Virus record (IMG/VR): IMGVR_UViG_3300046804_000242
Span: 1 to 25,442 of that record
DNA length: 25,442 nucleotides
Reading direction: 5' to 3' (one strand)
Source: a virus
The notes under the pieces are model-generated. The model made no database searches. It was not told where the DNA came from and worked only from the letters and a program-made list of their open reading frames with translations. Of the stretch, positions 1 through 16,548 are shown one piece after another. Position 1 is the stretch's first letter. Each line of letters starts with the position of its first letter. Both the position numbers and the translations under genes were made by a program.

Positions 1-8
1 GCCCCAGA

Positions 9-62: not shown

Positions 63-63
63 T

Positions 64-92: not shown

Positions 93-127
93 GCGGCAAA
101 CCCCACAACTACTAGTGGGTTACTCCT

Positions 128-691: not shown

Positions 692-697
692 AATTTT

Positions 698-721
698 AAT
701 CCCGTGGAATTAGACGGGTTT
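698..721. terminator. Weak hairpin, possible bidirectional terminator
   Basis: CCCGT (701-705) pairs with ACGGG (714-718) around an 8-base loop. Flanking A/T pairs extend the stem through one mismatch. T-rich sequence follows on the + strand and A-rich sequence precedes it, so it could stop transcription from both sides. It sits between the stop of the secreted protein (691) and the stop of a possible minus-strand ORF (722-720). Confidence 0.4.
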
Positions 722-836: not shown

Positions 837-863
837 CTAAATTAATTCACCGAAGCCGATTCT

Positions 864-1442
864 ATGCTGAAAGACAAATCCACCAAGGTACGCCCAAAAG
901 CCGGACGTAAGCCCCACGAACCGACAGAAGTGTCGCGCAATCAAGTACTTGCGTTCTGCGGCATGGGTCTGACCCACGGGCAGATATGTAAGCTATTGGA
1001 TATTAGTACCCCGACCCTCTACAAGAACTATAGGGCCGAACTCGACACCGGTGAGGCGCGGATGAACTTTAATGTCGCCAATAACTTGTACAACATTGCC
1101 ACCGACCCGACACACAAGAGCGGCGCACAAGCCGCGATGTTCTGGATGAAGACCCGCGCCCGCTGGCGGGAGACCAACAGACTGGAACACACCGGCCCAG
1201 ATGGACAACCAATTGCAACCAATAACACTTCCGTGCGCACGATTGATGCCAGCGTGCTGAACTCAGATCAGCGCCAAGCGCTTAGAGAGTTGATGGAGTC
1301 AGCGCTTGCGACCGCCCTTCAGAACAGCAGCGCAAACGGAAATCTGATAGAGCAATCCAATTACGCCGATGAGGACGAGGAAGAGGAAGAATCCCGTGAA
1401 GAAGAGGATGATTCCGCAGAGGATGAGGAAGGCGAAGTATAA
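864..1442 (+). CDS. terS: Terminase small subunit
   Basis: A 192-aa DNA-recognition subunit of the packaging motor. It binds the packaging site on phage DNA and hands it to the large subunit. Residues about 24-60 fit the helix-turn-helix of small terminases: a Gln/Val helix, a Gly-Leu-Thr turn, and a helix carrying Cys-Lys-Leu-Leu-Asp-Ile-Ser. A helical middle (about 65-105) carries Ala-Ala-Met-Phe-Trp-Met-Lys followed by Arg-Ala-Arg-Trp-Arg-Glu, typical of this family. The last 25 residues are nearly all Glu, Asp and Ser, an unusually acidic tail that may mimic DNA or regulate binding. The stop codon overlaps the ATG of the large subunit (TAATG), so the two are probably translationally coupled. 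The start has only a weak ribosome binding site. Confidence 0.85.
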   Translation: MLKDKSTKVRPKAGRKPHEPTEVSRNQVLAFCGMGLTHGQICKLLDISTPTLYKNYRAELDTGEARMNFNVANNLYNIATDPTHKSGAQAAMFWMKTRARWRETNRLEHTGPDGQPIATNNTSVRTIDASVLNSDQRQALRELMESALATALQNSSANGNLIEQSNYADEDEEEEESREEEDDSAEDEEGEV

Positions 1443-3070
1443 TGTCTGCATTGCCTAAGATAGATATCAGTAAGTTAGATCCGAGGCAGGTTCTAAAAGA
1501 TATCGAACGTGCCGACTGTGAAGACAGTCTATACGAATTCTTAAAGCATGCGTGGAAATATATTGACTCAAGCCCGTGGAAGGACGGTTGGCCTATTGAG
1601 GCAGTCGCGGAACATCTTCAAGCGGTTGTAGACGGCGACATTAAGCGCCTGATTATTAACATCCCACCGCGTATGGGCAAATCGAGCATTACAAGCGTGG
1701 CATTGCCCGCGTGGACTTGGGCGCAGCCAAACAGAAGCCCCACCAGTGGGCCGGGTGTCCAATTTCTTCATGCCTCTTATGCCAACCAACTTTCACTAAG
1801 AGATTCTGTTAAGAGCCGCCGACTCATCGAAAGCCCGTGGTATCAATCACACTGGGGTGAGCGGTTTGAACTTAACAGCGATCAGAATACTAAGAGCCGC
1901 TTCAGCAATGACAAAGGCGGCGAAAGGTTGATTACTTCGATTGGCGCTGCTGTAACTGGTGAAGGCGGCAGCATTATTGTAATCGATGATCCGAACGCCG
2001 CCAACGAAGCTTTTAGTGAAGCAACCATCGAAGCCACGAAAGAATGGTGGGATGGAACGATGTCTACGCGCTTGAATGATCCGAAGACCGGTGCGTATGT
2101 TGTGATTCAGCAAAGACTCGCCGAAGATGATTTGACCGGACACATCTTGAGTAAAGATGACGGTGAGTGGACGCACTTGTGTTTGCCGATGCGCTATGAA
2201 GCCAGCAGATCTTTTGTAACTACGATTGGATGGAAAGATCCACGCGAAGAAGAAGGCGAACTATTGTGGGAAGAGCGTTTTGGTGAGCCTGAAGTAAAAA
2301 AATTGGAGAAGACCCTAGGGCCATTTGCCGCCGCGGGTCAGTTGCAGCAACGCCCTGAGCCTGCTGGTGGCGGCGTGATCAAGCGCGACTGGTGGCAGCT
2401 TTGGCCTGACAATGCTTTTCCGCCGATGGACTTTATTGTCGCCAGCTTAGATACCGCTTACACGACAAAAACCGCTAACGACTACAGCGCATTGACTGTG
2501 TGGGGAATATTTACTGACGATGTCGTGGCTCAACCGACTCGAATGATTGATAACAGCGGTCGACCTAACTATGTGGATCGCAATTATGTCGAGGGAGCGC
2601 CGAAGGTGATGCTGATGCACGCTTGGCAAGAGCGCTTAGAGCTTCACGAACTAGTTGAAAAGGTTGCCAGAACGTGCAAGTCTTTGAAAATTGACAAGTT
2701 AATCATCGAAAATAAGGCTGCAGGTATCTCTGTAGCGCAGGAAATGCGCCGTTTGTACAGCAATGACGGGTTTGCGGTGCAATTATCTGACCCGAAATCG
2801 CAAGATAAGCTGTCTCGCTTGTATTCTGTGCAGCATTTATTTGCCGAAGGGTTGATTTTTGCGCCGGATCGCGCTTGGGCAGACATGGTTATCACACAAG
2901 TGGGTCAATTTCCGAAGGGAAAGCATGACGACTTGGTCGATACTGTGTCGATGAGCCTGCGTCACCTGCGAGAAATTGGGTTACTGACCCGTTCGCCTGA
3001 ACGAATTGCCGAATTGGAATCGCAAAAGACCTATCCCGGACGCGAATCTGTCCCTTTATATCCAAGTTGA
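1442..3070 (+). CDS. terL: Terminase large subunit (ATPase and nuclease)
   Basis: This 542-aa motor protein translocates DNA into the prohead and cuts it. The N-terminal ATPase has a Walker A motif Pro-Pro-Arg-Met-Gly-Lys-Ser (residues 75-81) and a Walker B motif Ile-Ile-Val-Ile-Asp-Asp-Pro (178-184, acidic pair Asp182-Asp183). The C-terminal RNase H-like nuclease has the first catalytic Asp in Ser-Leu-Asp-Thr-Ala (Asp337), a central Ile-Ile-Glu-Asn-Lys segment, and the last acidic motif His-Asp-Asp-Leu-Val-Asp (Asp496, Asp497, Asp500). Length and motif order are normal for the Terminase_6 type, and all key residues are present. It starts inside the stop codon of the small subunit. Confidence 0.97.
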   Translation: MSALPKIDISKLDPRQVLKDIERADCEDSLYEFLKHAWKYIDSSPWKDGWPIEAVAEHLQAVVDGDIKRLIINIPPRMGKSSITSVALPAWTWAQPNRSPTSGPGVQFLHASYANQLSLRDSVKSRRLIESPWYQSHWGERFELNSDQNTKSRFSNDKGGERLITSIGAAVTGEGGSIIVIDDPNAANEAFSEATIEATKEWWDGTMSTRLNDPKTGAYVVIQQRLAEDDLTGHILSKDDGEWTHLCLPMRYEASRSFVTTIGWKDPREEEGELLWEERFGEPEVKKLEKTLGPFAAAGQLQQRPEPAGGGVIKRDWWQLWPDNAFPPMDFIVASLDTAYTTKTANDYSALTVWGIFTDDVVAQPTRMIDNSGRPNYVDRNYVEGAPKVMLMHAWQERLELHELVEKVARTCKSLKIDKLIIENKAAGISVAQEMRRLYSNDGFAVQLSDPKSQDKLSRLYSVQHLFAEGLIFAPDRAWADMVITQVGQFPKGKHDDLVDTVSMSLRHLREIGLLTRSPERIAELESQKTYPGRESVPLYPS

Positions 3071-3080
3071 GTATATTTTT

Positions 3081-3308
3081 ATGCAAGAATTTTCAAATTT
3101 GCGCGTTAATGCCAGTTGTACGCTGGAATTGGTGCAGGAAATACCAAAAAAGAAATGGGAAGTGACAGTGACAGGTCTTGCACCGTATGATTGCACTAAA
3201 GTGTATACTCTTGCCGCCGATACTGATAACCAAGCGGCACAAGATGGATTGTGCTTATTTGTTTTAGAGATGCAAAAACAGCATGATCCTAGTTTGAAGG
3301 ATAAGTAA
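3081..3308 (+). CDS. Small hypothetical protein between terminase and portal
   Basis: A 75-aa protein beginning Met-Gln-Glu-Phe-Ser-Asn-Leu. The frame also has an ATG at 3006, but that one lies inside the large terminase gene and the first 25 codons would be terminase shadow. The ATG at 3081, ten bases after the terminase stop, is preferred. It looks like a small mixed alpha/beta domain with four cysteines or fewer and a Lys-rich end. It lies one base from the portal ATG, so it belongs to the same transcript. I do not recognise the family. Small proteins at this place are common in podoviruses and are usually of unknown role. Confidence 0.6.
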   Translation: MQEFSNLRVNASCTLELVQEIPKKKWEVTVTGLAPYDCTKVYTLAADTDNQAAQDGLCLFVLEMQKQHDPSLKDK

Positions 3309-3309
3309 T

Positions 3310-5649
3310 ATGCCATTAACGCCCGGCTTAGTTCCGAACATACGTCAAGTAGCTCCTGACGAACCTGAATTGCCTGAAGAGCAAGACGTTGTCGTGGAAC
3401 ACGCAGATGAAGGCGGAGATAAAGCTGTTACGGATGGCAAAGGCACAATTATTCAGATTGATCACGGAGATGGGTCAGTCACTATTGCGTTAGATGGTGC
3501 ATCACTTGGCGAGACTGAAGACAAGCAGCCAACTGAATGGTTTGATAACTTAGTAGATCAGATCAGCCAAGATGAACTGAACCGCATTTCCAGCGAACTG
3601 TTACGCGGAATCTCTGACGACATCGAATCACGCCGTGAATGGGTAGAAGATCGGGCCAGTGGTATCAAGCTGATGGGCTTGAAGCTGGAAGTTCCGGGCC
3701 TACAGGGTGCATCTGACGGTGCGCCTGTTGAAGGTATGTCGAAAGTGCGACATCCATTGTTGCTTGAAGCTGTTCTGCGCTTCCAAGCCAATGCTCGTTC
3801 TGAATTATTGCCAACCGATGGCCCAGTTAAGATTCGCAACGATGATAACAACGCGGATCTTTCTGAAGACCAGCTCGCAAACGCACTAGAACGCGATTTG
3901 AACCACTATCTCACTGCAGTGGCTACAGAGTACTACCCTGATACAGATCGCATGCTGCTGATGCTTGGCTTCGGCGGTACGTCATTCAAGAAGGTATACA
4001 ACTGTCCACTGCGCAATCGCCCAGTGTCGGAGACTGTAGATGCTGACGATCTGATCGTTAACAACTCAGCCACAGATTTGAAAAATGCCAAGCGTATTAC
4101 GCACCGCACTTACATGCGGCCTTCCACAGTTAAACGTCTACAGATTCTGGGGGTGTATCGCGACATCAATTTGATGACTCCGAACTCCCCAAATCTGGAC
4201 AGCTTACAGCGCGAAGAAAAAGCGCAGCAGGGCTTACGACCAGAAGCATCCAACCCAGATGATCGTGATCGAGAGATATACGAATGTTATTGCGAGTTGG
4301 ATATTCAGGGCTTCGAGCATAAGCATAAAGGTAAACCTAGCGGTCTGGAGATTCCATACCGCGTAACTATTGATGTAAGTTCAAGGGAAATTCTTTCAAT
4401 TGTACGAAATTACACTGAAGAAACTCAAGAACTTCCTGAAGCAAAAACCAGTTTTGTTAAGTACACGTTTGTTCCGGGCATCGGGTTCTACGACATCGGG
4501 CTGCTGCACATTCTTGGCAATACCACTAACGCAATTACCGCCGCTTGGCGTGAACTGCTGGACGCTGGTATGTACTCCAACTTCCCCGGCTTCCTGATGG
4601 CAGACTTAGGCGCTCGTCAGAACACCAACATCTTCCGTGTGCCTCCCGGCGGCGGCGCTCTGGTGAAGACTGGAGGCATGCCGATAAGCCAAGCCATTAT
4701 GCCACTGCCCTATCAACCGCCATCTCAGGCACTAATGCAGTTGGTCGGCGACATGGCCCAAACCGGGATGCGCATCGGAGGTACTTCTGAACAGCAAGTG
4801 GGCGAAGGCAAAGCTGATGCGCCAGTAGGTACTACGCTTGCCATGATCGAGCAGGCCACCAAGCTGATGAATGCGGTGCATAAGCGCTTACACGCCGCGC
4901 AAGCTGAGGAGTTTAAGCTGATTGTTGAATGCTTTAAAGAAAACCCTGAGTCATTTTGGATGCGTAAGTGCAAATCCAAGACCCAGTGGGACGAAGAAAC
5001 ATTCATGCGTGCAATCGATAATTGCGAACTGGTTCCACAGGCTGATCCAAATACATCAAGCCATGCCCAGCGCATTATGAAGATCACTGCATTGAAGCAG
5101 TTAGCCGCTTCTAACCCATCGATGTACGATCCAATCGCAATCGACACTGCAGCATTGCAGGCCATTGGTTACAGCAATCCGCAACAGTTCTTTGCTCCGC
5201 CTTCTACTCAGTCCAAGCCACCACCTGAAATTATCCAAGCTCAGGCCAAGGTTGCTAACGATACCAAGGCTGCTGACGCTAAGATGATCGAAGCCAAGGC
5301 CAAGGAAGCTGAAGCAATGGCGAAGATCCAGCAGGGTGCATTTGCACCTAAGCCTTCTGGTGGATTGTCTGGCGCTCCTCAGCAAGTCGATACTGAAGTC
5401 GAAAAGGCAATGGCACGCGCTAAGTTAATGGACGCTCAGACCAAGCGCGAAGAGCTGATGCTGAAGCATAAAGACACAATGCTTGAAGACCGTAATCGCG
5501 ACTTGGATCGTCAGAGTCGTGATCGAACTCAAAGCATTGAATTGCTACGAGACATCATCATGCATCCAGATGCTGCAAACATGCTGAAGGGTCAGATCTC
5601 ATCTCTGACAGATCGTTTGGGTAACAAAGGCAATAAAGGCGAAGAGTAA
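3310..5649 (+). CDS. Portal protein (P22-like)
   Basis: This 779-aa protein should form the dodecameric ring at one capsid vertex through which DNA enters and leaves. Its length fits the long P22-type portals rather than the shorter siphovirus type. The first 90 residues are acidic and probably flexible. The core (about 95-560) carries family features: the stretch around Lys-Val-Arg-His-Pro-Leu-Leu-Leu-Glu-Ala, Met-Leu-Leu-Met-Leu-Gly-Phe-Gly-Gly-Thr, and an Asn-Ala-Ile-Thr-Ala-Ala-Trp-Arg-Glu-Leu helix. Residues about 610-760 are rich in Ala, Lys, Glu and Gln with coiled-coil character, like the C-terminal barrel that extends into the P22 capsid. The ribosome binding site is AAGGATAAG just before the ATG. 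It follows the terminase genes closely and is almost joined to the polyvalent gene. Confidence 0.9.
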   Translation: MPLTPGLVPNIRQVAPDEPELPEEQDVVVEHADEGGDKAVTDGKGTIIQIDHGDGSVTIALDGASLGETEDKQPTEWFDNLVDQISQDELNRISSELLRGISDDIESRREWVEDRASGIKLMGLKLEVPGLQGASDGAPVEGMSKVRHPLLLEAVLRFQANARSELLPTDGPVKIRNDDNNADLSEDQLANALERDLNHYLTAVATEYYPDTDRMLLMLGFGGTSFKKVYNCPLRNRPVSETVDADDLIVNNSATDLKNAKRITHRTYMRPSTVKRLQILGVYRDINLMTPNSPNLDSLQREEKAQQGLRPEASNPDDRDREIYECYCELDIQGFEHKHKGKPSGLEIPYRVTIDVSSREILSIVRNYTEETQELPEAKTSFVKYTFVPGIGFYDIGLLHILGNTTNAITAAWRELLDAGMYSNFPGFLMADLGARQNTNIFRVPPGGGALVKTGGMPISQAIMPLPYQPPSQALMQLVGDMAQTGMRIGGTSEQQVGEGKADAPVGTTLAMIEQATKLMNAVHKRLHAAQAEEFKLIVECFKENPESFWMRKCKSKTQWDEETFMRAIDNCELVPQADPNTSSHAQRIMKITALKQLAASNPSMYDPIAIDTAALQAIGYSNPQQFFAPPSTQSKPPPEIIQAQAKVANDTKAADAKMIEAKAKEAEAMAKIQQGAFAPKPSGGLSGAPQQVDTEVEKAMARAKLMDAQTKREELMLKHKDTMLEDRNRDLDRQSRDRTQSIELLRDIIMHPDAANMLKGQISSLTDRLGNKGNKGEE

Positions 5650-5651
5650 TC

Positions 5652-8600
5652 ATGCTAGACCCTAAAGCTATTAAAAAAGCTCTGCTTATAGCCAAGGGTC
5701 TGCCTGACCGCCGAACGATGCATTTCTCAGAAGTGGGTAAGCGCATACCAGAATTGGAAGCTGGCGCTAATAAAGTTAATGCTGGTGAGATGTCTGGTAG
5801 CGAATATCAACAGCTAATAAATCAACACAAGCCTGTATACCCATACGAAAGCGTGCCTAACCCTGCTTCGTATGAGGAAATACATCGTGCGCTTTCTGCC
5901 ACTGATCCTCGCAAAGTTTCAAAAATTGGAAAGCTTGCCGATTATCCAGAAGGCCATCCAGTTGCATTGCGCTTAGATATCCCTGCGTACGAGAAGCAGG
6001 GTGTCTGGGTTCCAACAATACACGAAGGAAATAAGACTATCGCGCACGAAGGCGCTGCTCATATTTCCGATGCAACATTTAACGCAAACGAAAATAAGGG
6101 AATTAAGATTGCTGCTGGCGGTCAAAAAAATCCTTACGCTGTTATTAACGGTAAGCTCAAGAAGACTTCTACCGCAGACATTCATAAGTTAGCGCAGCAG
6201 TATCTCAATCATCCTGACTGGCGACAGGTCGGTATGGATCCAACTCGACACGGGTATTTCTATGATCGACATACTCAGGAGCCTATTGAACACGCAGAAG
6301 AAGTGCTGCAGGTCGGGCCATTAGTGCTGGCTAAGAATCCTACCTACGGTGATAAGTCCAAGTACAAATATGCAGACGGCGGCATCATTGGCAAGCCAAG
6401 CAGAATGCAACGTGCCGAGATGCGTATGCAGCAGGGTCTATCGCCTATTGAGAAGGGCGAGACCAACATCAATGTATATCACGGAACTGCGCACACTTTT
6501 CCGCCTGTTGAGGGTGCGCCATTAGGAAAGTTCGATTCCAGCAAGATCGGTACAGGAGAAGGCGCACAAGCTTATGGACACGGGATTTATGTGGCGCAAA
6601 ATCCAAATGTAGCTAAAGATTATCAGCTTTCAACATCAAAACATCAGTTTTTGACAAATGATGGTAATTTTGAACCACGCGAATTAGAACATTTGAATGT
6701 CCGTGCAAAAGCGTTGTCAGGTGATTTGGACACAGCTATTGAGAAAGCTCGAGAATTATCTAAACCAAATTTAGATTATCCTGAAACTGCCGCAAAAGCA
6801 GCTAGAGATTTGCAAAAATTAGAAAAGTTAAAAGCCAGCGGAGGTATACGCAAAAATCCGGGGCTTCTCTATACCGCAGATTTACCTGACGAACACATAG
6901 ATCGTATGTTGGACTGGGACAAGCCATTTAACAAACAACATCCGTATGTACAAAACGCATTAAAATCATCAGGAATTTATAAACAATATAAAGACAATTT
7001 GTCTAATTTTGCATCTCCAATGTCTAGTCGAAATAAAGACATGAAAGGTGGAAATATTCACGCCTTTATGGAGCATTTATCAGGTGGAGATTCTGCTAAG
7101 GCATCCGAAACATTAAGGAAAATGGGTATTCCCGGAATTAAGTATTTAGATGAAAGATCGAAATTCTTAGGCAAAGGAACTCAAAACTTTGTCGTATTCC
7201 CCGGCGAAGAACATAACCTTAATATACTTGCCCGTAAAGCAGAAGGCGGGGATGTTGAAGCGCCTCAACAGCCAGAGGACACCACGCCATCCCGTCAGTT
7301 GAACGAATATGGGCTATATAGCCACGCTGCAGAAGCTGCAGATGCGCTGAAGCAGGATAAAGGCTCACCACAGCAAATGATTGCTGCGCTGAAAGGCGTG
7401 AAGCCTGACGAACTATATTGGTCTGGCGTGCATAACGCATTCAAAGACCAAAAGACAATCACCAAGCAACAGCTTGCAGATCATTTCCGTAATGCCTTAC
7501 CGAAGATGTCGGTTAAGACACTTACGCCTACAGAAGGAACGATGAATGATCCAAAAGCAAAATATGCAGGATGGACTGCAGAAGGAAAGATAAGAAGCAG
7601 CAAGCAGCCAAATCTTTCTACTAATTACAGAGAAGTTTTGCAGACTCTGCCTTTGAACGATATGAATCCTGCTATCGGAAACACCGATGATGCAGAAAAG
7701 GATTTTACTAGCTCCCACTGGCGCGAGCCTAATATCGTATCTCATGTAAGATTATCTGATCGAGAGACTCAGCCGCCACAGCAAAAAGCACCTAAAGCAC
7801 CGCCATCAGATTCTTCTGTGATGATAAAGATGAATGGAGTGGAGGCCAATAGGTACAGCGAAGCTTGGAAGACTCCTCATAAGAATATATTTGTAACTCC
7901 AAGTATTCAGAAGCGTAATAAATATGTTCTTACTCACGGGCCTTCTGGTGGATCAATATCAAGCAATCCTGTTGATTTCTATCATGCAATGAGCAATGCC
8001 ACTAAGCTTGCAGAAAAATATCCTCATGTATTTGATCTGGACAGAGAGGGACTTGTAAATTTTATTGCAAACCCACAAAACAAAGAAACTGTAAATGGTG
8101 TTAGAGAAATAGTTAACTCAGATCCACCTGAATTGCCAGCTTCAAAGAAAGCAAAACCATTTACTAAAGAAAAGATTCTTCACGTTGACGAGTCTCAGAG
8201 CGACTTTGGTCAAGCGCTTAGAAAGCATACTGATAAATTTAATGAAGCAAAAGAAAAGATACAGAAGTTAAAAGATGAGCATAACTTTCATAAAGGTGAA
8301 CTTGAAAGATTGGTTAAAGAAAACCCACATCTAGTAGATGAAACCGGAAGACCAATGACAGTTTGGGACTTCAGAGAAAGATTTCCAAATCTTGATCAAA
8401 TGACAGATGAACAAAAAGAACAGTTCAATCGAGATAATAAAAATTGGAATTTGCTGCATTCTCACGAAAGAGATGCTGACAACAAGAGAAGAGCTATTAC
8501 TTCTTATACCAATGATCTTTCTGCTGAACAAAAGATGTTGCTAGATCTTCCAAAGTCTCCATATGTGGATAACACATCGAAGTGGACTGACCTCAATGTA

Positions 8601-9182
8601 AAGAGAATATTGACAGAAGCGGCTAAGGGAAATTACGACAAAGTGATTTGGACTCCCGGATCTGTGCAATCTAAGATCTACGGCATTGGACGTAGCTATT
8701 CAAAAATTCTTTATGACCCAGCATCAAAAAGACTGGTTGCAACTCCAAAAGGAAGATCTAGAGGAGTTACTGAAATAGTCGATCCTAAAGATTTACCAAA
8801 TTATCTTGGCGAGGGGCTGACAAAAAAACTTCTTGAATCTAACGAAAGCGGCGTTCATATGCTGCGCGGTAGAAACTTGGATGTTCCAAACCCCGGTCAG
8901 GAAGCCTATTACGGCAAGATCTTCCCAAGACGATTGCTGGAACTCGCCCGCGAGCATGACCCAGAGGCAGCTTTAACTGAGCACAGAGATAGCGATAAGT
9001 TGGTGGATAAATATCCAGCTATTCAGATCACTCCAAGGATGCGGGAGAGCATCCTGAAGAACGGGTTCAAAGCCTATAAGACTGGTGGATACATTGATGA
9101 TTCAGGTATCCTAAGCGCTGCTCAAGATCCAAGCAAAGCGATCCGCAAAGCGCTGATGATAGCTAAGAAACGTAAAGGTTAA
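5652..9182 (+). CDS. Polyvalent protein with ADP-ribosyltransferase-like domain
   Basis: A 1176-aa multidomain protein, two bases after the portal stop. Module 1 (about 1-240) resembles a domain recurrent in phage polyvalent proteins, with a His-Pro-Val-Ala-Leu-Arg-Leu-Asp-Ile-Pro-Ala-Tyr strand and a Gln-Val-Gly-Met-Asp-Pro turn. Module 2 (about 274-527) looks like the polyvalent-protein ADP-ribosyltransferase: Tyr-His-Gly-Thr at 276-279, Gly-Thr-Gly-Glu-Gly-Ala-Gln-Ala, Tyr-Gly-His-Gly-Ile-Tyr at 308-313, and a closing Gly-Ile-Lys-Tyr-Leu-Asp then Asn-Phe-Val-Val-Phe-Pro. Module 3 (about 545-1140) has Ser-Ser-His-Trp-Arg-Glu-Pro-Asn, His-Val-Asp-Glu-Ser-Gln-Ser-Asp and a Lys-Trp-Thr-Asp-Leu-Asn-Val-Lys-Arg stretch, also typical of that class. 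Each module ends in a Gly-Gly motif (243-244, 532-533, 1145-1146). Near-identical DPKAIKKALLIAK-type segments stand at both ends. It is probably packaged and delivered to modify host targets; this is inferred from the family. Confidence 0.8.
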   Translation: MLDPKAIKKALLIAKGLPDRRTMHFSEVGKRIPELEAGANKVNAGEMSGSEYQQLINQHKPVYPYESVPNPASYEEIHRALSATDPRKVSKIGKLADYPEGHPVALRLDIPAYEKQGVWVPTIHEGNKTIAHEGAAHISDATFNANENKGIKIAAGGQKNPYAVINGKLKKTSTADIHKLAQQYLNHPDWRQVGMDPTRHGYFYDRHTQEPIEHAEEVLQVGPLVLAKNPTYGDKSKYKYADGGIIGKPSRMQRAEMRMQQGLSPIEKGETNINVYHGTAHTFPPVEGAPLGKFDSSKIGTGEGAQAYGHGIYVAQNPNVAKDYQLSTSKHQFLTNDGNFEPRELEHLNVRAKALSGDLDTAIEKARELSKPNLDYPETAAKAARDLQKLEKLKASGGIRKNPGLLYTADLPDEHIDRMLDWDKPFNKQHPYVQNALKSSGIYKQYKDNLSNFASPMSSRNKDMKGGNIHAFMEHLSGGDSAKASETLRKMGIPGIKYLDERSKFLGKGTQNFVVFPGEEHNLNILARKAEGGDVEAPQQPEDTTPSRQLNEYGLYSHAAEAADALKQDKGSPQQMIAALKGVKPDELYWSGVHNAFKDQKTITKQQLADHFRNALPKMSVKTLTPTEGTMNDPKAKYAGWTAEGKIRSSKQPNLSTNYREVLQTLPLNDMNPAIGNTDDAEKDFTSSHWREPNIVSHVRLSDRETQPPQQKAPKAPPSDSSVMIKMNGVEANRYSEAWKTPHKNIFVTPSIQKRNKYVLTHGPSGGSISSNPVDFYHAMSNATKLAEKYPHVFDLDREGLVNFIANPQNKETVNGVREIVNSDPPELPASKKAKPFTKEKILHVDESQSDFGQALRKHTDKFNEAKEKIQKLKDEHNFHKGELERLVKENPHLVDETGRPMTVWDFRERFPNLDQMTDEQKEQFNRDNKNWNLLHSHERDADNKRRAITSYTNDLSAEQKMLLDLPKSPYVDNTSKWTDLNVKRILTEAAKGNYDKVIWTPGSVQSKIYGIGRSYSKILYDPASKRLVATPKGRSRGVTEIVDPKDLPNYLGEGLTKKLLESNESGVHMLRGRNLDVPNPGQEAYYGKIFPRRLLELAREHDPEAALTEHRDSDKLVDKYPAIQITPRMRESILKNGFKAYKTGGYIDDSGILSAAQDPSKAIRKALMIAKKRKG

Positions 9183-9185
9183 AAA

Positions 9186-11123
9186 ATGGCAAAGAAAAAA
9201 CAGACTAGTGCTGAGAAAAAAGCTCACGTTGAAAAAGCGTTAGCTTATATTGCCGATAAGGTAAAACAATACGGTCAGAAAGAAGTTTCTGTAGCGGACA
9301 ATCCAAGAAGAGTTATCGTACAGGCAGAAGGGCCGGGCAGAGCAAACAAAATATCGATTCCTGCACACACTCTTTACGGCAACGCTAATGAAGATGTCAA
9401 AGGAATGATGGAAATTAATAAAGCTAGAGCAGAAGTATATGGCGGAGAACAAAGAGATCCGTTAAATATTACTCAATTTAGCAAAATACACGGGAAAACC
9501 CTTGACGATCATTTTCAAAAGCCATTAGCGCAACAAATGCAGGATGAAGAAGCTGCGTTAAATAAACTCAAAAAGGCAAAGCATATTAGCCCTGATGCCA
9601 ATACTTTGGATGAAAGTGAAAAATTAGACACCGTACATCACGAACAAGATGATAAGGGCAGAAATTTTATTGCTTTTGCTTCAAAAGGCACTGCCGGTCA
9701 TGCCCTCTATACGTCTGGATCTGGCGTTGGCACTAAGTACCATATTGTTAATACCTGTCCGGGTCAAACAGATGGATGCGGCGGGGGTATTGATGAACAC
9801 GGATTAGTTGATACATCGCGCGGAAACTGCTTTGCCGTAAAATCTGAGAAGCAATACCCAGCGGCAGCAATTAGAAGAGCCTGTCACGAGCAAGCCAAGT
9901 TTGATCCAGCAATGACCAAAGATTGGATTTTGGCCCATGCGGGATCAATGAGGTGGGCTGCAAATTTGGCTGACAAAAACAATAAAAGATTATTGTTTAG
10001 ACCTAATGTGGTGGACGAATCAGATAAATCATCAATCTACTTAATTAAGTTATTAAATAAGCAAAGAGCGATGAAAAATTTGCCACCAATTATTTCTAAT
10101 TCTTATGGCAAAACTAATGAGTTGCATGATCCAGAGAATGGCATTTTTGTAACGTATTCAAACACCGGCCCAAAAACAAAGCATGGTTTTTCCATAGCAG
10201 AAAATATTGCTAGAGACTCAAAGAGAATGAGATCTACAGTTTTTGCCACAGAAGGCAAAAGAGATCTTACAAATGAGCAAGGGAATTTAACTCCGCCAAA
10301 GAATTCATATCTAGTAACGAACGTAAGAAGAAACTCAGATATGGATAATAAAATGCAGAATGCCATTAGGTACGCTAAGTATTGGTCTAGGCCAAGAGAG
10401 CAAAGCGAATTAAGTCCAGAGGAAAAGATGGAAGGCCCTGAAGGTCATTATGATGGTAATCATAATCCTACTACTCCAGAACTGGCGCATTATGGACATA
10501 CAACCGTTAATGGTCAGCGGTTTGATTATCAGAAACAGCACATCCTGCACCCTAGATTGGTTCAGGTAGGCCATAATGATGACGGATCTCCGCACATGAT
10601 TCCTACCGACTCTAGATTTTTGGACGATCAGTATTTGCCAAAAGATCGTTTTATGACTAAGAACGGTAAAAAGGCAGGGGCTATTCTGATGACTACCCCG
10701 ACTATCTCAACTACGCCAGCAGAACATCACACTGGATTTTTCCATGATGTGAATGACAATCATATTCAGCATGCATTACAAAATAACGGCGAATATGTGA
10801 TTGATCCTCCTGACGAACAAGTTAGGTCTGCTGGAAAGGAGTATGTTCCGCCTAAATTCGTGTCTGCATCAAGCATAAAAAAGAGAAGCGGGTTCTATAC
10901 GGGCGGAGCTGTACACGGCAGGGATAACGAAGACGACTGGATCGGATTCCCAGAAAGGAATTCGGCAACTCAGCTTCACAATATGCATAGCAGCATAGAC
11001 GAAGATCGAGAGCCTCATTTTTACCCCCACAAGCGTCAAAAGCGGGACGGCGTAAATCAACTGGTTGACCGCGCTATGCAGTTAGTAGCAAACTTGTCAA
11101 CATCAAGATCGGGCAACCGATAA
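9186..11123 (+). CDS. Four-cysteine cargo-like protein, gp88-like layout
   Basis: A 645-aa protein three bases after the polyvalent gene. The N terminus is Lys-rich and helical. A central region has four cysteines in a conserved-looking block: Cys191 (Asn-Thr-Cys-Pro-Gly), Cys198 (Gly-Cys-Gly-Gly-Gly), Cys215 (Arg-Gly-Asn-Cys-Phe-Ala) and Cys233 (Arg-Arg-Ala-Cys-His). These are followed by Pro-Ala-Met-Thr-Lys-Asp-Trp-Ile-Leu-Ala-His. The layout recalls the mycobacteriophage gp88 family, in which clustered cysteines precede an alpha/beta region; this is a likeness of layout, not a proven match. The cysteines could bind zinc or an iron-sulfur cluster. Near the C terminus is Phe-Tyr-Thr-Gly-Gly-Ala-Val (Gly573-Gly574), the same motif that ends the modules of its neighbour. 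It is probably co-translated with that protein and with the basic protein downstream. Confidence 0.65.
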   Translation: MAKKKQTSAEKKAHVEKALAYIADKVKQYGQKEVSVADNPRRVIVQAEGPGRANKISIPAHTLYGNANEDVKGMMEINKARAEVYGGEQRDPLNITQFSKIHGKTLDDHFQKPLAQQMQDEEAALNKLKKAKHISPDANTLDESEKLDTVHHEQDDKGRNFIAFASKGTAGHALYTSGSGVGTKYHIVNTCPGQTDGCGGGIDEHGLVDTSRGNCFAVKSEKQYPAAAIRRACHEQAKFDPAMTKDWILAHAGSMRWAANLADKNNKRLLFRPNVVDESDKSSIYLIKLLNKQRAMKNLPPIISNSYGKTNELHDPENGIFVTYSNTGPKTKHGFSIAENIARDSKRMRSTVFATEGKRDLTNEQGNLTPPKNSYLVTNVRRNSDMDNKMQNAIRYAKYWSRPREQSELSPEEKMEGPEGHYDGNHNPTTPELAHYGHTTVNGQRFDYQKQHILHPRLVQVGHNDDGSPHMIPTDSRFLDDQYLPKDRFMTKNGKKAGAILMTTPTISTTPAEHHTGFFHDVNDNHIQHALQNNGEYVIDPPDEQVRSAGKEYVPPKFVSASSIKKRSGFYTGGAVHGRDNEDDWIGFPERNSATQLHNMHSSIDEDREPHFYPHKRQKRDGVNQLVDRAMQLVANLSTSRSGNR

Positions 11124-11143
11124 CTTAATCTCTGGAGAACAGA

Positions 11144-12514
11144 ATGTCCGAAATGTCGAAAAAGGCCAGAATGGCGATGAGGAGCAAAATCTCCAGAATT
11201 ACCAAATCTGACCCAAAAGCTAAGGTAGATGCCTCTGATTACACCCCGCCAGATGCGCTGAATGCTGGTGTAAAGACGGGCGCTCGACCACTTTCCCGCC
11301 GCCAATTCAAGAAGGGCGGTAAAGTTGTTTCTATGTCCGGCGAAATGGCAAAGCAACACGCCGGTCGAAAGCCTCGCAAGAGTGGCGGCAAAGCTATCAC
11401 CGCCAATAGCTACATCAACCGTGATGTGCGCGAAGCTAACGAAGACCGCGATGGCAAGAAGCATGTAGGCGCTTTCAAGAAAGGCGGAATGGTCAAGCAC
11501 GATGACGTTGCTGAAGACAAGAAGCTGATCAAAAAGGTCGTAAAGCCTAGCGCTCTGAAGGGTCACGATGCTGAATGTCGTTGCGGCAAATGCGGTGGCG
11601 GTTCAGCAATGAAGCGTGGCGGGCGAACCGGCAAAGAAGGTGGTGGCTCTAGCTCCAGCTCTTCTTCATCTGCATCATCCGATTCTGCAAAGCAAGCCGC
11701 TTTAGGGAGATATCAGGCTGCACAACAGGCTATGGCACAGCCTAATGCAATAACAGGCTCATTAGCCGCTGGTCGTGAAGCATTAAAGTCCGATCTCCGA
11801 AAAGATATGGAAGCCAAGGGCGATACTACTTGGCAAGGCAAAAAGCGCGGTGGGCGCACTAAGAAAGAAGGCGGCGGTGGCATGAGCGCTGGGTCTTCTA
11901 GCTCATCAAGCTCTTCTAGTTCTTCTAGCTCTTCTAAGCCCTCTCAGGCAGAACTTGATGCAATCCGAGAAGCAAAAGACAAGCAAATGGATGCAAACTT
12001 GCAAAAAGGCTGGGACTACTGGAGAACCCATCGCAACAGCGGCGGAAAGGCTGGAGTGGGCAAAAAGATGGCAGGCGGAAGCAAAGCTAAAAGCTCTAAT
12101 GTGTCAGATGGAAAGCTCCAAGGAACGCGCCCAACAGGCGGTCGCCTCGCACGCAAACACGGCGGAAAAGCCAAGCTAAAAGGCGCTACAATTATTAAAA
12201 TTGACATCAATGGCAAGGATGAAAACAAGCCTATGGGCTTAGGCTTAGGCGCAGGCATGCCTCCAATGCCTCCTCGCCCAATTCCAGTGCCTCCTGCAGG
12301 CGCTGGCGCTCCTATGCCAATGCCTCCTGCACCTCCCGCAGGCGGTATGCCTCCCGGCGGCCCAATGCCTCCTGCAGGCATGCCTCCGATGGGCCGCAAG
12401 GCTGGTGGTCGCGTAGGTCACCGTTCCTACAAAACCACGCATGATATGGATGCAGGATCTGGCGGCGGATTAGGACGAAAAGAAAAAATAAAAATCTACG
12501 GCAAAAAAGCGTAG
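11144..12514 (+). CDS. Basic low-complexity protein with Gly-Gly, Ser and Pro repeats
   Basis: A 456-aa, very Lys/Gly/Ser/Pro-rich protein behind a GGAGAA ribosome binding site. Visible parts, in order: Phe-Lys-Lys-Gly-Gly-Lys-Val (55-61); the element HAGRKPRKSGGKA (72-84); Phe-Lys-Lys-Gly-Gly-Met-Val (111-117); a Cys-Arg-Cys-Gly-Lys-Cys cluster (145-150); a KRGGRTGKEGGG block followed by a Ser tract; a second KRGGRTKKEGGG block followed by a longer Ser tract; further Lys/Arg-Gly-Gly motifs; a Met-Pro-Pro-rich region; and a final Arg-Lys-Ala-Gly-Gly-Arg-Val. The Ser tracts use mixed TCT, AGC, TCA and TCC codons, so they are not simple triplet slippage. It is probably disordered and DNA- or capsid-associated. 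A hairpin terminator follows. No named family is recognised. Confidence 0.7.
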   Translation: MSEMSKKARMAMRSKISRITKSDPKAKVDASDYTPPDALNAGVKTGARPLSRRQFKKGGKVVSMSGEMAKQHAGRKPRKSGGKAITANSYINRDVREANEDRDGKKHVGAFKKGGMVKHDDVAEDKKLIKKVVKPSALKGHDAECRCGKCGGGSAMKRGGRTGKEGGGSSSSSSSSASSDSAKQAALGRYQAAQQAMAQPNAITGSLAAGREALKSDLRKDMEAKGDTTWQGKKRGGRTKKEGGGGMSAGSSSSSSSSSSSSSSKPSQAELDAIREAKDKQMDANLQKGWDYWRTHRNSGGKAGVGKKMAGGSKAKSSNVSDGKLQGTRPTGGRLARKHGGKAKLKGATIIKIDINGKDENKPMGLGLGAGMPPMPPRPIPVPPAGAGAPMPMPPAPPAGGMPPGGPMPPAGMPPMGRKAGGRVGHRSYKTTHDMDAGSGGGLGRKEKIKIYGKKA

Positions 12515-12520
12515 TTACAG

Positions 12521-12556
12521 TAAACGGGCAGATAGGTTATCCTAACTGCCCGTTTA
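12521..12556 (+). terminator. Long hairpin after the cargo cassette
   Basis: An 11-bp perfect stem (TAAACGGGCAG 12521-12531 with CTGCCCGTTTA 12546-12556) is extended, past one A/A mismatch, by 4 more pairs (TAGG with CCTA) around a TTAT loop. Only a short T run follows, so it may be a terminator, an attenuator or an RNA-processing stem that separates the cargo cassette from the head-assembly genes. Confidence 0.75.
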
Positions 12557-12573
12557 GTTATCTGTAGGAGTTT

Positions 12574-12774
12574 ATGCTTACATATCACAATTTATTTGAA
12601 ACTGAATTAAAGAAACTGATTGAAGAAGAGATTGGACGAATTGCAGAAAACTTATCGCTCGGCCTGAGCATAGTTGATTTTCCTGAATACAAGCACCAAG
12701 TAGGGCAAATAGCTGCTTTGCGCAAAGTATTAGGAATGTGCGAAGAAGTTCAAACCATTATTGCCAATAAATGA
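12574..12774 (+). CDS. Small helical phage protein of unknown function
   Basis: A 66-aa protein behind a TAGGAG ribosome binding site. It is nearly all helix, with a Glu/Lys-rich first half (a Leu-Ile-Glu-Glu-Glu-Ile segment) and a conserved-looking Tyr-Lys-His-Gln-Val-Gly-Gln-Ile-Ala-Ala-Leu-Arg stretch at about 41-52. Similar short proteins with this Tyr-Lys-His-Gln-Val-Gly core are found near capsid genes of other tailed phages, where the role is not established. It is the first gene after the 12521-12556 hairpin and lies 15 bases before the co-chaperonin gene, so the two are probably expressed together. Confidence 0.7.
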   Translation: MLTYHNLFETELKKLIEEEIGRIAENLSLGLSIVDFPEYKHQVGQIAALRKVLGMCEEVQTIIANK

Positions 12775-12789
12775 TAGGAGTTTTATTAG

Positions 12790-13182
12790 ATGCCTGCTAT
12801 GACAATGCAACACGATGTCGATCCTAAAAAAGCTTTACACAAGCAAATAGGCGATATTTCAGATATTGAGATCTACAACAATCAAGTATTGGTTGCTGTG
12901 TACATTCGCCCAGAAAAAACTCTTGGCGGAATCATTATTCCTGACGAAAACCGCAACGAAGATAAGACCCAAGGCAAGGTTGGCCTTGTGCTAAAGAAAG
13001 GCCCCGATGCCTTCAAAGACGAAAGCGGTCAATGGTTCAAAGATGTGATGGTAAAGGACAATGATTGGGTCATTTTCCGTCCATCAGATGGTTGGACTAT
13101 CACTGTGAACAAAGTTGTTTGTCGAATTCTTGATGATGTAAACGTCAGAGGTCGCATTCAACATCCAGATCAAGTGTGGTAA
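12790..13182 (+). CDS. GroES-like co-chaperonin
   Basis: A 130-aa protein whose middle and end fit the chaperonin-10 fold. A first strand Asn-Gln-Val-Leu-Val-Ala-Val-Tyr is followed by Pro-Glu-Lys-Thr-Leu-Gly-Gly-Ile-Ile-Ile-Pro-Asp, the mobile loop that contacts GroEL and the clearest signature here. Next come Gln-Gly-Lys-Val-Gly-Leu-Val, a Lys-Asp-Asn-Asp-Trp-Val-Ile-Phe strand, and a final Val-Cys-Arg-Ile-Leu-Asp-Asp-Val. It is about 30 residues longer than bacterial GroES because of an N-terminal extension and a middle insertion. It stands just before the scaffold gene, so the likely job is to redirect the host GroEL to capsid folding, as T4 gp31 does. No GroEL gene is seen in the window. 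Confidence 0.85.
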   Translation: MPAMTMQHDVDPKKALHKQIGDISDIEIYNNQVLVAVYIRPEKTLGGIIIPDENRNEDKTQGKVGLVLKKGPDAFKDESGQWFKDVMVKDNDWVIFRPSDGWTITVNKVVCRILDDVNVRGRIQHPDQVW

Positions 13183-13193
13183 GGAGTAATGTG

Positions 13194-14084
13194 ATGTCAA
13201 CAGAACCAGAACAGATTGAAATTGAAGTAACAGATCAACCGGCGGTTGAAAAAGAAGAGCTTGAGATTGTAAAGGCTGAGGAACAATCGCAAGAGCCTTC
13301 TAAAGTTAAAGAGATTGAGCCTGAAGAAGGTCTTGAGGCACTTAAAAAGCGTCTTGAGGAAGAGCGTTCAGCTCGTATTAATGCTGAAAAGCTTGCCCAA
13401 GAAGCTGCTCAACGTGCTTATCAAGCTTCAAACGAAGTGCAAGATGTCAATTTGCAACTTGTTAAGAATGCAATCGACACTTTGCATGGTAATGCACGCA
13501 CATTGAAGTCTGAATACTCTAGCGCAATGGCTATGGGTGATTATGACCGTGCTGCAGAGCTTCAGGAATCCATGTCTGAAAACACTGCAAAGCTTTTGCA
13601 GCTTGAGCAAGGCAAAACTGCTCTTGAGAATCAGCCTAAACAGAAAGCACCTGAGCCTGTTTATTCAGATCCAGTAGAAAATCTTGCCTCTCAACTCACT
13701 CCGCGTTCTGCAGAATGGATTAGGCGTAATCCTGATTTCGCAAGAAACCCAAGGATGTATCAAAAGATGATTGCTGCTCATAATCTAGTGACCGCAGACG
13801 AAATTAGGCCAGATACAGATGAATACTTTGCGCGTGTAGAAAGCATTCTTGGCGTTGGCAGCTCTGATAGCGATGACAGTCCTATGTCTTTAGCATCAAA
13901 GCCAGCTCAAAAGCGCTCTCCTCCTGCTGCACCCGTGAGCAGGTCAGGCACTGGCACTGGAACTCGTCCAAATGTCGTTCGTTTAACGGCTCAGGAAAGA
14001 GAAATTGCATCAATGATGGGTATGACCGATCAAGATTATGCGCGTAATAAACTAGCCCTTCAAAAAGAAGGCAAACTTAACTAA
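13194..14084 (+). CDS. Capsid scaffolding protein
   Basis: A 296-aa protein translated from the ATG at 13194, which has a perfect AAGGAG site (13181-13186) 7 bases upstream. A GTG further upstream (13176) overlaps the co-chaperonin end and is not preferred. The first 45 residues are acidic. Residues about 45-145 are a strongly helical coiled coil rich in Glu, Ala, Gln and Leu. Residues 160-220 form a small domain with Arg-Arg-Asn-Pro-Asp-Phe-Ala. A Ser/Pro/Gly linker leads to a basic C-terminal helix-turn-helix-like end (Arg-Leu-Thr-Ala-Gln-Glu-Arg-Glu). Acidic, coiled-coil and with a basic tail, in the slot before the capsid genes: this fits a scaffold, which guides coat assembly and is then removed. 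Confidence 0.75.
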   Translation: MSTEPEQIEIEVTDQPAVEKEELEIVKAEEQSQEPSKVKEIEPEEGLEALKKRLEEERSARINAEKLAQEAAQRAYQASNEVQDVNLQLVKNAIDTLHGNARTLKSEYSSAMAMGDYDRAAELQESMSENTAKLLQLEQGKTALENQPKQKAPEPVYSDPVENLASQLTPRSAEWIRRNPDFARNPRMYQKMIAAHNLVTADEIRPDTDEYFARVESILGVGSSDSDDSPMSLASKPAQKRSPPAAPVSRSGTGTGTRPNVVRLTAQEREIASMMGMTDQDYARNKLALQKEGKLN

Positions 14085-14093
14085 AGGTGACTT

Positions 14094-14786
14094 ATGGAAA
14101 CTACAGATACAACACAAATCGCTGATGCTGCTCCTGTTAAAAAGCGTGGTCGTCCTTCAGGAAAGCTTGCCAAAGCCGCCCGTGAAGCTAAAGCTGCAGA
14201 AAAGCTTACCGATCAGTCTGATTTAGCAGCAGAAGTTCCTTCTATTGCTGAAATTTCCCGCTCAGTAATGCGAGATGACCCTTCAGATCGACCAGAAATG
14301 AGGCCAATGATGCGTGAAGAAGATCCAAGAGTTCGCGCCGCACGCCGTGCGGCTGAATTACGAGACCATTTAGGCAGCATGGATGAATCCCCTGATGATT
14401 TCTACATTCCTCCATCAGACCTACCTCCCGGCTGGACATATGAATGGAAGCGAAAGACTCTTTTAGGCCAAGAAGATCCTGCATATCAGGTTCAATTGGC
14501 ACAAAGAGGGTGGGAGGCAGTGCCTGCATATCGTCATCCGTCTTATATGCCTGTTGGGTATAAAGGCGCAACGATTGAACGAAAAGGTATGATCCTGATG
14601 GAGCGCCCACTGGAGATTACGCAAGAAGCGCGTGATTTCGAGATTCGCAAAGCACGAAATCAGGTTCGCCAGAAAGAAGCGCAATTGGCTGGCGCTCCAG
14701 ATGGTCAATTTGAGAGAAACAATAAGGACTCATCGCTTGTTAAGGTTAAAAAATCATACGAAGCGATGCCAATTCCTAAAGATTAA
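14094..14786 (+). CDS. Head-module protein with AT-hook-like motif
   Basis: A 230-aa protein behind an AAAGGTGA site. Residues 16-24 read Lys-Lys-Arg-Gly-Arg-Pro-Ser-Gly-Lys, an AT-hook-like minor-groove binding motif, followed by an Ala/Lys helix. The middle (about 95-170) has a recurrent phage pattern: Tyr-Ile-Pro-Pro-Ser-Asp-Leu-Pro-Pro-Gly, Thr-Tyr-Glu-Trp-Lys-Arg, a Gly-Trp-Glu-Ala-Val-Pro turn and Gly-Met-Ile-Leu-Met-Glu-Arg-Pro. The last third is helical and charged. Proteins of this type stand between scaffold and capsid genes in related phages; the function is not established. A strong terminator follows. Confidence 0.7.
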   Translation: METTDTTQIADAAPVKKRGRPSGKLAKAAREAKAAEKLTDQSDLAAEVPSIAEISRSVMRDDPSDRPEMRPMMREEDPRVRAARRAAELRDHLGSMDESPDDFYIPPSDLPPGWTYEWKRKTLLGQEDPAYQVQLAQRGWEAVPAYRHPSYMPVGYKGATIERKGMILMERPLEITQEARDFEIRKARNQVRQKEAQLAGAPDGQFERNNKDSSLVKVKKSYEAMPIPKD

Positions 14787-14813
14787 GGATAATTTGAATA
14801 AAATTCTCCTGTT

Positions 14814-14837
14814 AGCGGCCTTCGGGCCGCTTTTTTT
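14814..14837 (+). terminator. Rho-independent terminator with UUCG loop
   Basis: AGCGGCC (14814-14820) pairs with GGCCGCT (14825-14831) around a TTCG tetraloop, followed directly by a run of seven T including the last stem base. It is a textbook intrinsic terminator, closing the scaffold operon. Confidence 0.93.
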
Positions 14838-14847
14838 ATAAAAATAC

Positions 14848-14875
14848 TTGACAATCAATTAATAACAGGAATAAC
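14848..14875 (+). promoter_or_regulatory. Promoter for the capsid genes
   Basis: A perfect -35 box TTGACA (14848-14853) is followed after 16 bases by AATAAC (14870-14875, 4 of 6 matches to -10). It lies directly behind the UUCG terminator and about 100 bases before the decoration gene. The implied leader contains a small hairpin (CCTCTC 14889-14894 with GAGAGG 14900-14905). The placement suggests separate, high-level transcription of the capsid genes. Confidence 0.55.
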
Positions 14876-14975
14876 CTTCGCTTCAACTCCTCTCTCGGCG
14901 AGAGGTATTTAACAAAAATCTGGTCTTAGTCGCCCCGGTGCGCGATGACGACTTCCGTAATAGGAGTTTTCCGTC

Positions 14976-15602
14976 ATGGCGAATACCCTCGCGCCTTTCG
15001 GATTTGTTCAATATTTAGGTAACGGCTCTGTGCCAACCTATGAACAAGTCTCGATGAAGATTGCCTCTAGCAACACCACGGCTATTTTCTTTGGTGATGC
15101 AGTAACCCCAGTAACCAGCTCTGTTACCGGCTATATCACGAAAACCGCTGCCGCATCAACTACGCCGCTTGCTGGTGTGTTCGTTGGCTGTAAATATCTG
15201 TCAACTGCTCAAAAGCGCGTTGTATGGAGCAATTATTGGCCCGGTTCCGATACGTCTAATGACGTTGAAGCTTATGTTGTCAATGATCCTAATGCCCAGT
15301 TCAAAGTGCAGTGTATCGCTGGCCCACTTACTGCTGCTTCTGTAGGTCGAAACGTAGATATTGACACGACTACCTCTGGCTCTACCGCTACTGGCATTTC
15401 CGGTATGGCGGTTTCTGCTACGGCAGCTTCTACGTCTACTCTTCCTTTCCGTATTGTGAGCCTGCTCACGAACAGCGGCGTAGCGATTCCTAACGGCGCT
15501 CCTCCTCCCGGTTCAAACGGAACGGATGCTGCTTCGGCATATAACTACGTCATCGTAGCATTTAACAACATTCAGACTCGCGCTGGCGCGACTTCTGTTT
15601 AA
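14976..15602 (+). CDS. Probable head decoration / virion structural protein
   Basis: A 208-aa protein behind a TAGGAG site. It begins Met-Ala-Asn-Thr-Leu-Ala-Pro-Phe-Gly-Phe, an opening seen in a widespread class of phage structural proteins next to the major capsid gene. It is rich in Ala, Thr, Ser and Val and looks mostly beta. Further class features are Thr-Ala-Ile-Phe-Phe-Gly-Asp-Ala-Val, Gly-Val-Phe-Val-Gly-Cys, a Trp-Ser-Asn-Tyr-Trp-Pro-Gly-Ser segment (about 84-91) and Gly-Ile-Ser-Gly-Met. It is the first gene behind a promoter and directly before the capsid gene, so it is probably abundant. Decoration or cement of the shell is the likely role, by position and class rather than by direct proof. 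Confidence 0.75.
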   Translation: MANTLAPFGFVQYLGNGSVPTYEQVSMKIASSNTTAIFFGDAVTPVTSSVTGYITKTAAASTTPLAGVFVGCKYLSTAQKRVVWSNYWPGSDTSNDVEAYVVNDPNAQFKVQCIAGPLTAASVGRNVDIDTTTSGSTATGISGMAVSATAASTSTLPFRIVSLLTNSGVAIPNGAPPPGSNGTDAASAYNYVIVAFNNIQTRAGATSV

Positions 15603-15618
15603 TTAGGAGCATAGTAAA

Positions 15619-16524
15619 ATGGCTGTCAATTTAAGTGCAATTAAAGACCTACTGCTCCCCGGTCTGCGTGGCGTAGAAGGCAAGTATGAGATGATCCCAT
15701 CTCAATACGACAAGATCTTCACAAAGCATGATTCAAAGCTTGCTTTAGAACGTACCGCAGAAATGCGTTACTTAGGTCTTGCTAACCTGAAGACTGAAGG
15801 CGGTCAAACTTCGTTTGACAACGGTGCAGGCGAGCGTTTCATCTATAACCAAGAACACAATGAAATTGGTCTTGGCTATGCAATCACCCGCAAGGCGATT
15901 GATGATAACCTGTACAAAACTCAGTTCCACCCATCGAACCTCGGTCTGATCGAATCTTTCCAACAGACCAAGGAAATCTACGGTGCTAACATCCTTAACA
16001 CTGCTACGACATACAACAACGCCATCGGCGGTGACGGCGTAGCTTTAGTGTCAGCATCTCACCCAATCGATGGCGGCGTAGTATCTAACTACGGCACGAC
16101 TGATCTGAACGAAAGCACGTTGTTGAACAGCATGATCAACATCCGTACTAACTTCAAAGATCAAGCCGGTCTGAAGGTGTTTGCTCGCGGTCGTAAGTTG
16201 ATCGTTCCTGCTGCTCTCGAACCAGTTGCAATTCGTTTAACGAAGACCGAATTGCGTCCGGGTACTGCTGATAACGATGTTAACGCCATCCTGTCAACGG
16301 CTGGTGGCCTACCTGAAGGTTATATGGTCAATGACTTCTTGACCTCAGCTTCAGCTTGGTTCCTGCTGACCAACATTGATGGTCTGTCGTATATGGAACG
16401 TGTAAAGTTTGAAACCGACATGCAAGTTGACTTCGTAACTGATAACCTGTTGGTTAAAGGCTATGAGCGTTACAGCTTCGGCTACTACAACTGGCGTGCT
16501 ATTTACGGCAACTTCCCATCTTAA
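15619..16524 (+). CDS. Major capsid protein (HK97 fold, Mu gpT-like)
   Basis: A 301-aa shell protein behind a TAGGAG site. The N-terminal part (about 15-60) has Gln-Tyr-Asp-Lys-Ile-Phe and a long charged helix. The middle shows an Ala-Ser-His-Pro segment followed by Gly-Gly-Val-Val-Ser-Asn-Tyr, then Asp-Leu-Asn-Glu-Ser-Thr-Leu. The gpT-like signature is the chain Lys-Val-Phe-Ala-Arg-Gly-Arg-Lys-Leu-Ile-Val-Pro followed by Leu-Arg-Pro-Gly-Thr-Ala-Asp-Asn-Asp-Val-Asn-Ala (about 185-225). The C terminus has Phe-Val-Thr-Asp-Asn and a Tyr-Tyr-Asn-Trp-Arg-Ala strand. The length is normal for a compact HK97-fold coat. There is no long N-terminal delta domain, in agreement with a separate scaffold gene. 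Confidence 0.93.
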   Translation: MAVNLSAIKDLLLPGLRGVEGKYEMIPSQYDKIFTKHDSKLALERTAEMRYLGLANLKTEGGQTSFDNGAGERFIYNQEHNEIGLGYAITRKAIDDNLYKTQFHPSNLGLIESFQQTKEIYGANILNTATTYNNAIGGDGVALVSASHPIDGGVVSNYGTTDLNESTLLNSMINIRTNFKDQAGLKVFARGRKLIVPAALEPVAIRLTKTELRPGTADNDVNAILSTAGGLPEGYMVNDFLTSASAWFLLTNIDGLSYMERVKFETDMQVDFVTDNLLVKGYERYSFGYYNWRAIYGNFPS

Positions 16525-16548
16525 TCGGCTAGTAAAGGAGGCTCAAAC

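Follow-up and report, generated by a model that had tools for sequence, protein, structure and literature searches.

Why should the same short Gly-Gly motif stand behind each module of a large phage protein and recur in the protein encoded next to it? The question arises from a 25,442-nt virus record, IMGVR_UViG_3300046804_000242, which in its whole length is referred to here as the window (Table 1). Its head genes run in the order terminase, SU10-type portal, 1176-residue polyvalent protein, GP88-like protein, basic Gly-rich protein, GroES-like protein, probable scaffold and major capsid protein; no protease domain was recognised in the 302-residue probable scaffold, and the GroES-like gene occupies the same place in most annotated relatives that we looked at. 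Polyvalent proteins, as described by Iyer et al. (2017; PMC5512222), are of large size, combine several domains of the ART-PolyVal kind and the like, and are proposed to enter the cell together with the DNA.

Table 1 Features of the window (nucleotide positions unless residues are stated).
Feature	Position	Strand	Remarks
Record IMGVR_UViG_3300046804_000242, whole stretch	1..25,442		25.4-kb virus record
Portal protein, SU10/phrog_1216 type	3310..5649	+	Served as motif-independent bait; strict motif 0
1176-aa polyvalent protein, putative cargo	5652..9182	+	Three modules
N-terminal candidate tag helix LDPKAIKKALLIAKG	5655..5699 (residues 2-16)	+	Isolated helix 4-14 in AlphaFold model
Module 1, L5 gp82-like/phrog_586	residues 128-219		Pfam match
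GG motif 1, KYKYADGGIIG, module 1 end	6360..6392	+	Gly pair nt 6378, residue 243
Short predicted helix behind GG motif 1, PSRMQRAEMRMQ	6396..6431	+	Helix 251-260 in model
Module 2, ART-PolyVal-like (ADP-ribosyltransferase)	residues ~273-516		Pfam match
GG motif 2, LARKAEGGDVE, ART module end	7227..7259	+	Gly pair nt 7245, residue 532
Module 3	residues ~540-1137		
GG motif 3, FKAYKTGGYID, module 3 end	9066..9098	+	Gly pair nt 9084, residue 1145; 31 residues before C-terminus
C-terminal candidate tag helix DPSKAIRKALMIAKKRKG	9126..9179	+	Near copy of N-terminal helix; isolated helix 1160-1175 in model
645-aa GP88-like protein, putative cargo	9186..11123	+	Pfam PF17338 E 5.4e-5, under cut-off; 21 relatives
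Possible N-terminal tag helix of GP88-like protein, AHVEKALAYIADK	9222..9260	+	Resemblance only
GG motif of GP88-like protein, GFYTGGAVHG	10890..10919	+	Gly pair nt 10902, residue 573
Possible C-terminal tag helix of GP88-like protein, NQLVDRAMQLVANL	11055..11096	+	Resemblance to VDRALxLxx tails
456-aa basic Gly/Pro/Ser-rich (KGG-rich) protein	11144..12514	+	Five relaxed GG copies of a basic type, [FR]KxGG[KRM]
GroES-like (Cpn10) gene	12790-13182		Between cargo and scaffold
Probable scaffold, 302 aa	13176..14084	+	Weak match, only to C-terminal end of Mu I protein
92-aa basic protein	17076..17354	+	Three related GG sites: RATGGV, RKRGGR, RKSGGR

An earlier note on this DNA had located four Gly pairs, and each lies exactly where it was placed (Table 1). 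In the AlphaFold model of the 1176-residue protein (mean pLDDT 71, 24-row alignment), low-confidence stretches at residues 243-255, 537-555 and 1142-1163 start at or just after each of the three motifs, behind confidently modelled modules. The claim that the motif closes every module thus holds for these three ends but needs qualifying, as a long low-confidence stretch within module 3 (about residues 617-780) lacks a full motif and five further GG doublets of the protein lie away from the borders. Copies of the strict pattern, [YFWKRHM][AK]xGGx[VI], number 3 in this protein against a mean of 0.025 in shuffled versions, with none of 5,000 shuffles reaching 3; the probability that each of the three 21-residue border windows would by chance receive one of its eight GG doublets is 0.002, for windows chosen after the motif was known. 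The Pfam matches of the protein stay under the curated cut-offs (26.1 versus 27 bits; 14.5 versus 31.2 bits). ART-PolyVal, which like L5 gp82 is below its cut-off in the window, is well above it in the relatives L082 and L087. A PDB fold search with the whole model returned nothing significant, its top line being an ADP-ribosyltransferase domain at E 0.7. The copy in the 645-residue neighbour is real, as had been said, yet falls outside the strict pattern. The five relaxed copies in the KGG-rich protein and the three related sites in the 92-residue protein had gone unmentioned.

Relatives carry the same modules reshuffled into other proteins and other orders, and the motif still trails them. 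It follows module 1 in 14 of 14 relatives in which the module end is present, and module 3 in 20 relatives, the single exception being a match that stops before the module end. At the GP88 module a GG motif is found in all 21 relatives reaching that place (17 by pattern and 4 by eye). All 11 relatives with an ART module have the motif behind it, compared with none of six sequences that belong to other lineages, namely phiGT1, Tunturi_5, vir555 and three contigs. A check that the earlier note had proposed, that homologues keep the motif while its flanks drift, was clearly passed.

We next collected loci by similarity to the portal, a bait that itself lacks the strict motif, and defined the cargo slot as the genes between terminase and portal or between portal and GroES/scaffold. 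The census covers the best 80 loci per scan of around 600 portal relatives, on contigs that are partly incomplete and with simple gene calling, and its counts treat loci as unrelated. The first search gave 78 further loci, over which 189 strict motifs occur where 6.8 are expected. Cargo-slot proteins carry the motif in 55 of 91 cases (1.8 expected) and other genes in 2 of 313 (2.5 expected); in this first set it is absent from 75 portals, 68 terminases and the scaffold cluster. Even the relaxed motif is missing from 18 of the 91 cargo-slot genes, some of which are cut or doubtful ORFs. Because the cargo proteins fall mostly into separate similarity clusters, the motif is not merely inherited along one domain. 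It is also present in 21 of 23 KGG-rich proteins of the portal-collected set, and the KGG-rich family cluster holds 67 strict motifs over 25 members against 0.83 expected. In a second scan, with the patterns fixed beforehand and previously seen portals removed, 22 new near-relative loci had the strict motif in 24 of 36 cargo genes versus 1 of 85 others. A search of the open-licence literature found no description of the motif.

The motif is one part of a larger terminal arrangement. Its last copy lies no more than 40 residues from the C-terminus in 39 of 51 complete proteins (7.5 expected; maximum 19 over 2,000 random-placement simulations). At N-termini a helix of the form DPxxAIRxALxIAR precedes the motif, and at C-termini a helix VxRALxLAR comes after it. 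In the window the two terminal helices are near copies of each other (DP-KAIKKALLIAK at the N-terminus, DPSKAIRKALMIAK at the C-terminus). The helix pattern, derived from the first portal set, occurs there at 19 of 64 cargo N-termini and 18 of 64 cargo C-termini, as against 0 and 1 of 275 other genes; applied to the new loci, it was found at 8 and 6 of 30 cargo N- and C-termini and at 0 and 2 of 76 in other genes. A C-terminal and an N-terminal tag can stand back to back inside the chain of fused proteins, as in L082, LKASGGMVTDPKKAARAALYVARKTFAAGGDV.

Further variants were seen around this arrangement. Two 537-residue cargo-slot proteins (L251:15454-17064 and L261:13888-15498) have the helix at both ends (VNKALSLTS... 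/ IDRALSLTS...) but lack even the relaxed GG motif; the helix may therefore work alone. A second type of C-terminal helix, about xHKALEIIHHLL and mostly behind a GG motif, occurs in cargo-slot proteins (L040, L044, L045, L046, L050, L056, L073, L079, L091 and L098). More distant relatives in the second scan, with portals mostly 34-38% identical, had few cargo genes and no tag helix, and among these (L274-L314) the strict motif turns up in 10 of 215 genes that lie outside the cargo slot, where 1.9 would be expected. GG sites also trail module 1 in CRP-207 and CRP-9, two Roseobacter phages, and in ctYwJ313; all three have different annotated head genes, and the tag helix was not seen at the termini of their proteins. 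No cargo-slot protein of the Roseobacter phage CRP-901 has the strict motif. Pelagibacter phage HTVC027P has two strict copies.

Beyond the cargo slot, the strict motif in eight near-complete genomes is found chiefly in cargo, in the KGG-rich protein and in two large proteins encoded side by side in the presumed ejection region (79 versus 4.6 expected). One of the two matches the DNA-ejection-protein family phrog_4287, and from this match and their neighbourhood we presume that both act as ejection proteins. The partner ends in RA[TS]GGxV, a basic stretch and xKALxVANxxI, a C-terminal architecture (RATGGxV...DDTVxKALxVANxxI) that is kept as the body diverges: across five genomes, whose sequences are 18-29% identical to the first, few columns are invariant, and these include the GG pair, the Val and the core of the helix. 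Scanning with the helix pattern, a selection that fixes the helix and leaves the GG motif and the bodies free, picked 79 proteins, all 79 of which have a GG 30-40 residues upstream; 1,721 of 2,278 pairs of helix-picked proteins share a similar tail and no detectable body similarity. Profile comparison of cargo with ejection helices gave moderate agreement, above the 99% null for 6 of 64 C-terminal and 3 of 64 N-terminal helices, with a profile too narrow to decide the link. The cargo helix and the ejection helix may be one and the same element.

What, then, does the motif do? The earlier note had raised a cleavage site and offered a linker or packaging tag as the alternative; the evidence favours the tag. 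Were the polyvalent protein a polyprotein, a protease would cut after Gly-Gly and free the modules, either while still in the head or once injected, a reading that draws on the position of the motif at module borders within flexible stretches and on the proposal that embedded peptidases release parts of polyvalent proteins (PMC5512222). The motif is not confined, however, to places where two products would need separating: in four complete proteins its last copy lies 2-6 residues before the C-terminus, leaving almost nothing to release. Tandem copies exactly 8 residues apart (8 cases in cargo and 7 in KGG-rich proteins), the variable residues adjoining the Gly pair, the joining of the motif to a conserved helix at both termini and its presence in presumed ejection proteins likewise argue against a cut. 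Such tandems occur, for example, at residues 1014/1022 in L047:2797-6771, 938/946 in L053:4550-9733, 348/356 in L068:10084-13137 and 697/705 in L077:6036-9305.

The order of helix then Gly-Gly at some N-termini does look like a double-glycine (C39) leader, but here the order is reversed at C-termini and the motif is also internal. Position -4 is hydrophobic in C39 leaders, whereas it is mostly Ala or Lys here. Peptidase_C39 matched none of 18 records, with the control matching in 8 genomes; across the 18 records there were no matches to the S78 peptidase and none to CLP_protease over its cut-off. A search for S77 was uninformative because its control gave no match either. Among the Pfam matches of one complete relative, just two bear a peptidase name, an M15 of endolysin type and the S74 chaperone. 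With no candidate beyond these two in the 18 records and the complete relative, we rejected a phage protease of a recognised kind as the cutting enzyme; the cut could still come from a protease of the host or from one of the phage that escaped recognition, and cleavage in this wider sense is less likely than a recruitment tag and, in our judgement, unlikely overall.

Two further explanations are both quite improbable. The Gly-Gly could be a plain flexible linker, merely a hinge between modules, and its place at the low-confidence inter-module stretches of the AlphaFold model fits this. Yet the flanks are enriched, with Tyr/Phe/Lys/Arg at -3, Ala/Lys at -2 and Val at +3 (partly by construction of the pattern), the motif is missing behind the ART module where other phages carry it, and it is kept at protein ends and tied to a conserved helix. 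Alternatively, the motif could serve association with DNA or with itself, the tags condensing the proteins of the head interior on DNA, or together with the KGG-rich basic protein, and binding no head component. The helices are basic, and the KGG-rich protein has many basic copies where those of cargo are more acidic (mean charge +0.60 versus -0.11 at position +2 and +0.23 versus -0.19 at -1). The acidic copies of cargo are unlikely to bind DNA, however, and a density of about one copy per 280 cargo residues suggests discrete docking sites. A DMDAGAGSGLGRLEKTEI-like stretch stands at the C-terminus of the KGG-rich protein in the window and relatives, and is repeated in some relatives. Chance in Gly-rich proteins was ruled out by the shuffles, as was a DNA-level repeat or recombination site by ordinary Gly and Val codons and by the finding that motifs paired within a gene have the GG codon pair in common in just 52 of 172 cases; since the motif's Gly codons match the usual codon use of their genes, conservation is at the protein level.

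On the strength of its position, its recurrence, its association with the cargo slot and presumed ejection proteins, its link to the helix and its conservation as protein, all observed directly, we propose, with a probability of roughly 0.6, that the GG motif is part of a recruitment or loading tag common to ejection proteins and polyvalent cargo. The tag would be short and movable, a helix joined to [Y/F/K/R]-[A/K]-x-G-G-x-[V/I], with the helix leading at N-termini and the motif leading at C-termini, on proteins bound for the head interior. As the presumed head-internal proteins have it in common, a common component could load them: most likely one head component, be it scaffold, portal or an ejection protein, would bind the tag during procapsid assembly, so that unrelated effector modules and ejection proteins would be loaded together and later exit with the DNA. 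We infer the packaging of cargo from gene position and by analogy with polyvalent proteins elsewhere; presence in the virion, a receptor, a role in loading and a history of fusion are likewise what we infer. Polyvalent proteins may be chains of formerly separate tagged cargo proteins, and we propose that the tag persists at each module border because of this descent. More tentatively, the helix with Y/F-A-x-G-G-x-V could be a general, transferable loading code, by which a large group of podovirus-like phages would recruit arbitrary effector modules into the head, borrowing the tag at the end of the phage's own ejection protein, and polyvalent proteins would grow by end-to-end fusion of tagged cargo.

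Precedents exist for such terminal signals. The first 30 residues of P1 DarB suffice to load a reporter into the head; the Dar N-termini of P1 yielded no consensus signal (PMC9024508). The capsid targeting sequence of DarB, like that of T4 IPIII, is a short N-terminal signal that carries large, otherwise unrelated proteins into the head, and the tag would here play a comparable part. The likeness proposed is one of function, and the tag described here differs in its placement, which takes in both ends and the internal borders, and in having a consensus common to many proteins. No prohead protease, which would process signals of the T4 IPIII type, was recognised among 18 records in searches for S78 and, above its cut-off, CLP_protease. 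The encapsulation peptides of bacterial microcompartments (BMC), amphipathic helices of 18-20 residues at the N-terminus or less often the C-terminus, steer cargo into a protein shell (PMC7221423). This is a functional analogy only, as container and sequence are different and the GG motif is particular to the phage tag. The GG border motif is not mentioned in the accessible text of Iyer et al. (2017; PMC5512222), where the emphasis is on embedded peptidases.

A whole group of phages here has a recognisable tag on unrelated proteins. If the tag is a loading signal, a culturable relative would allow packaging to be tested directly by means of a reporter joined to a short peptide, and injected effectors, including candidates for counter-defence, would become predictable from sequence among genes of unknown function.
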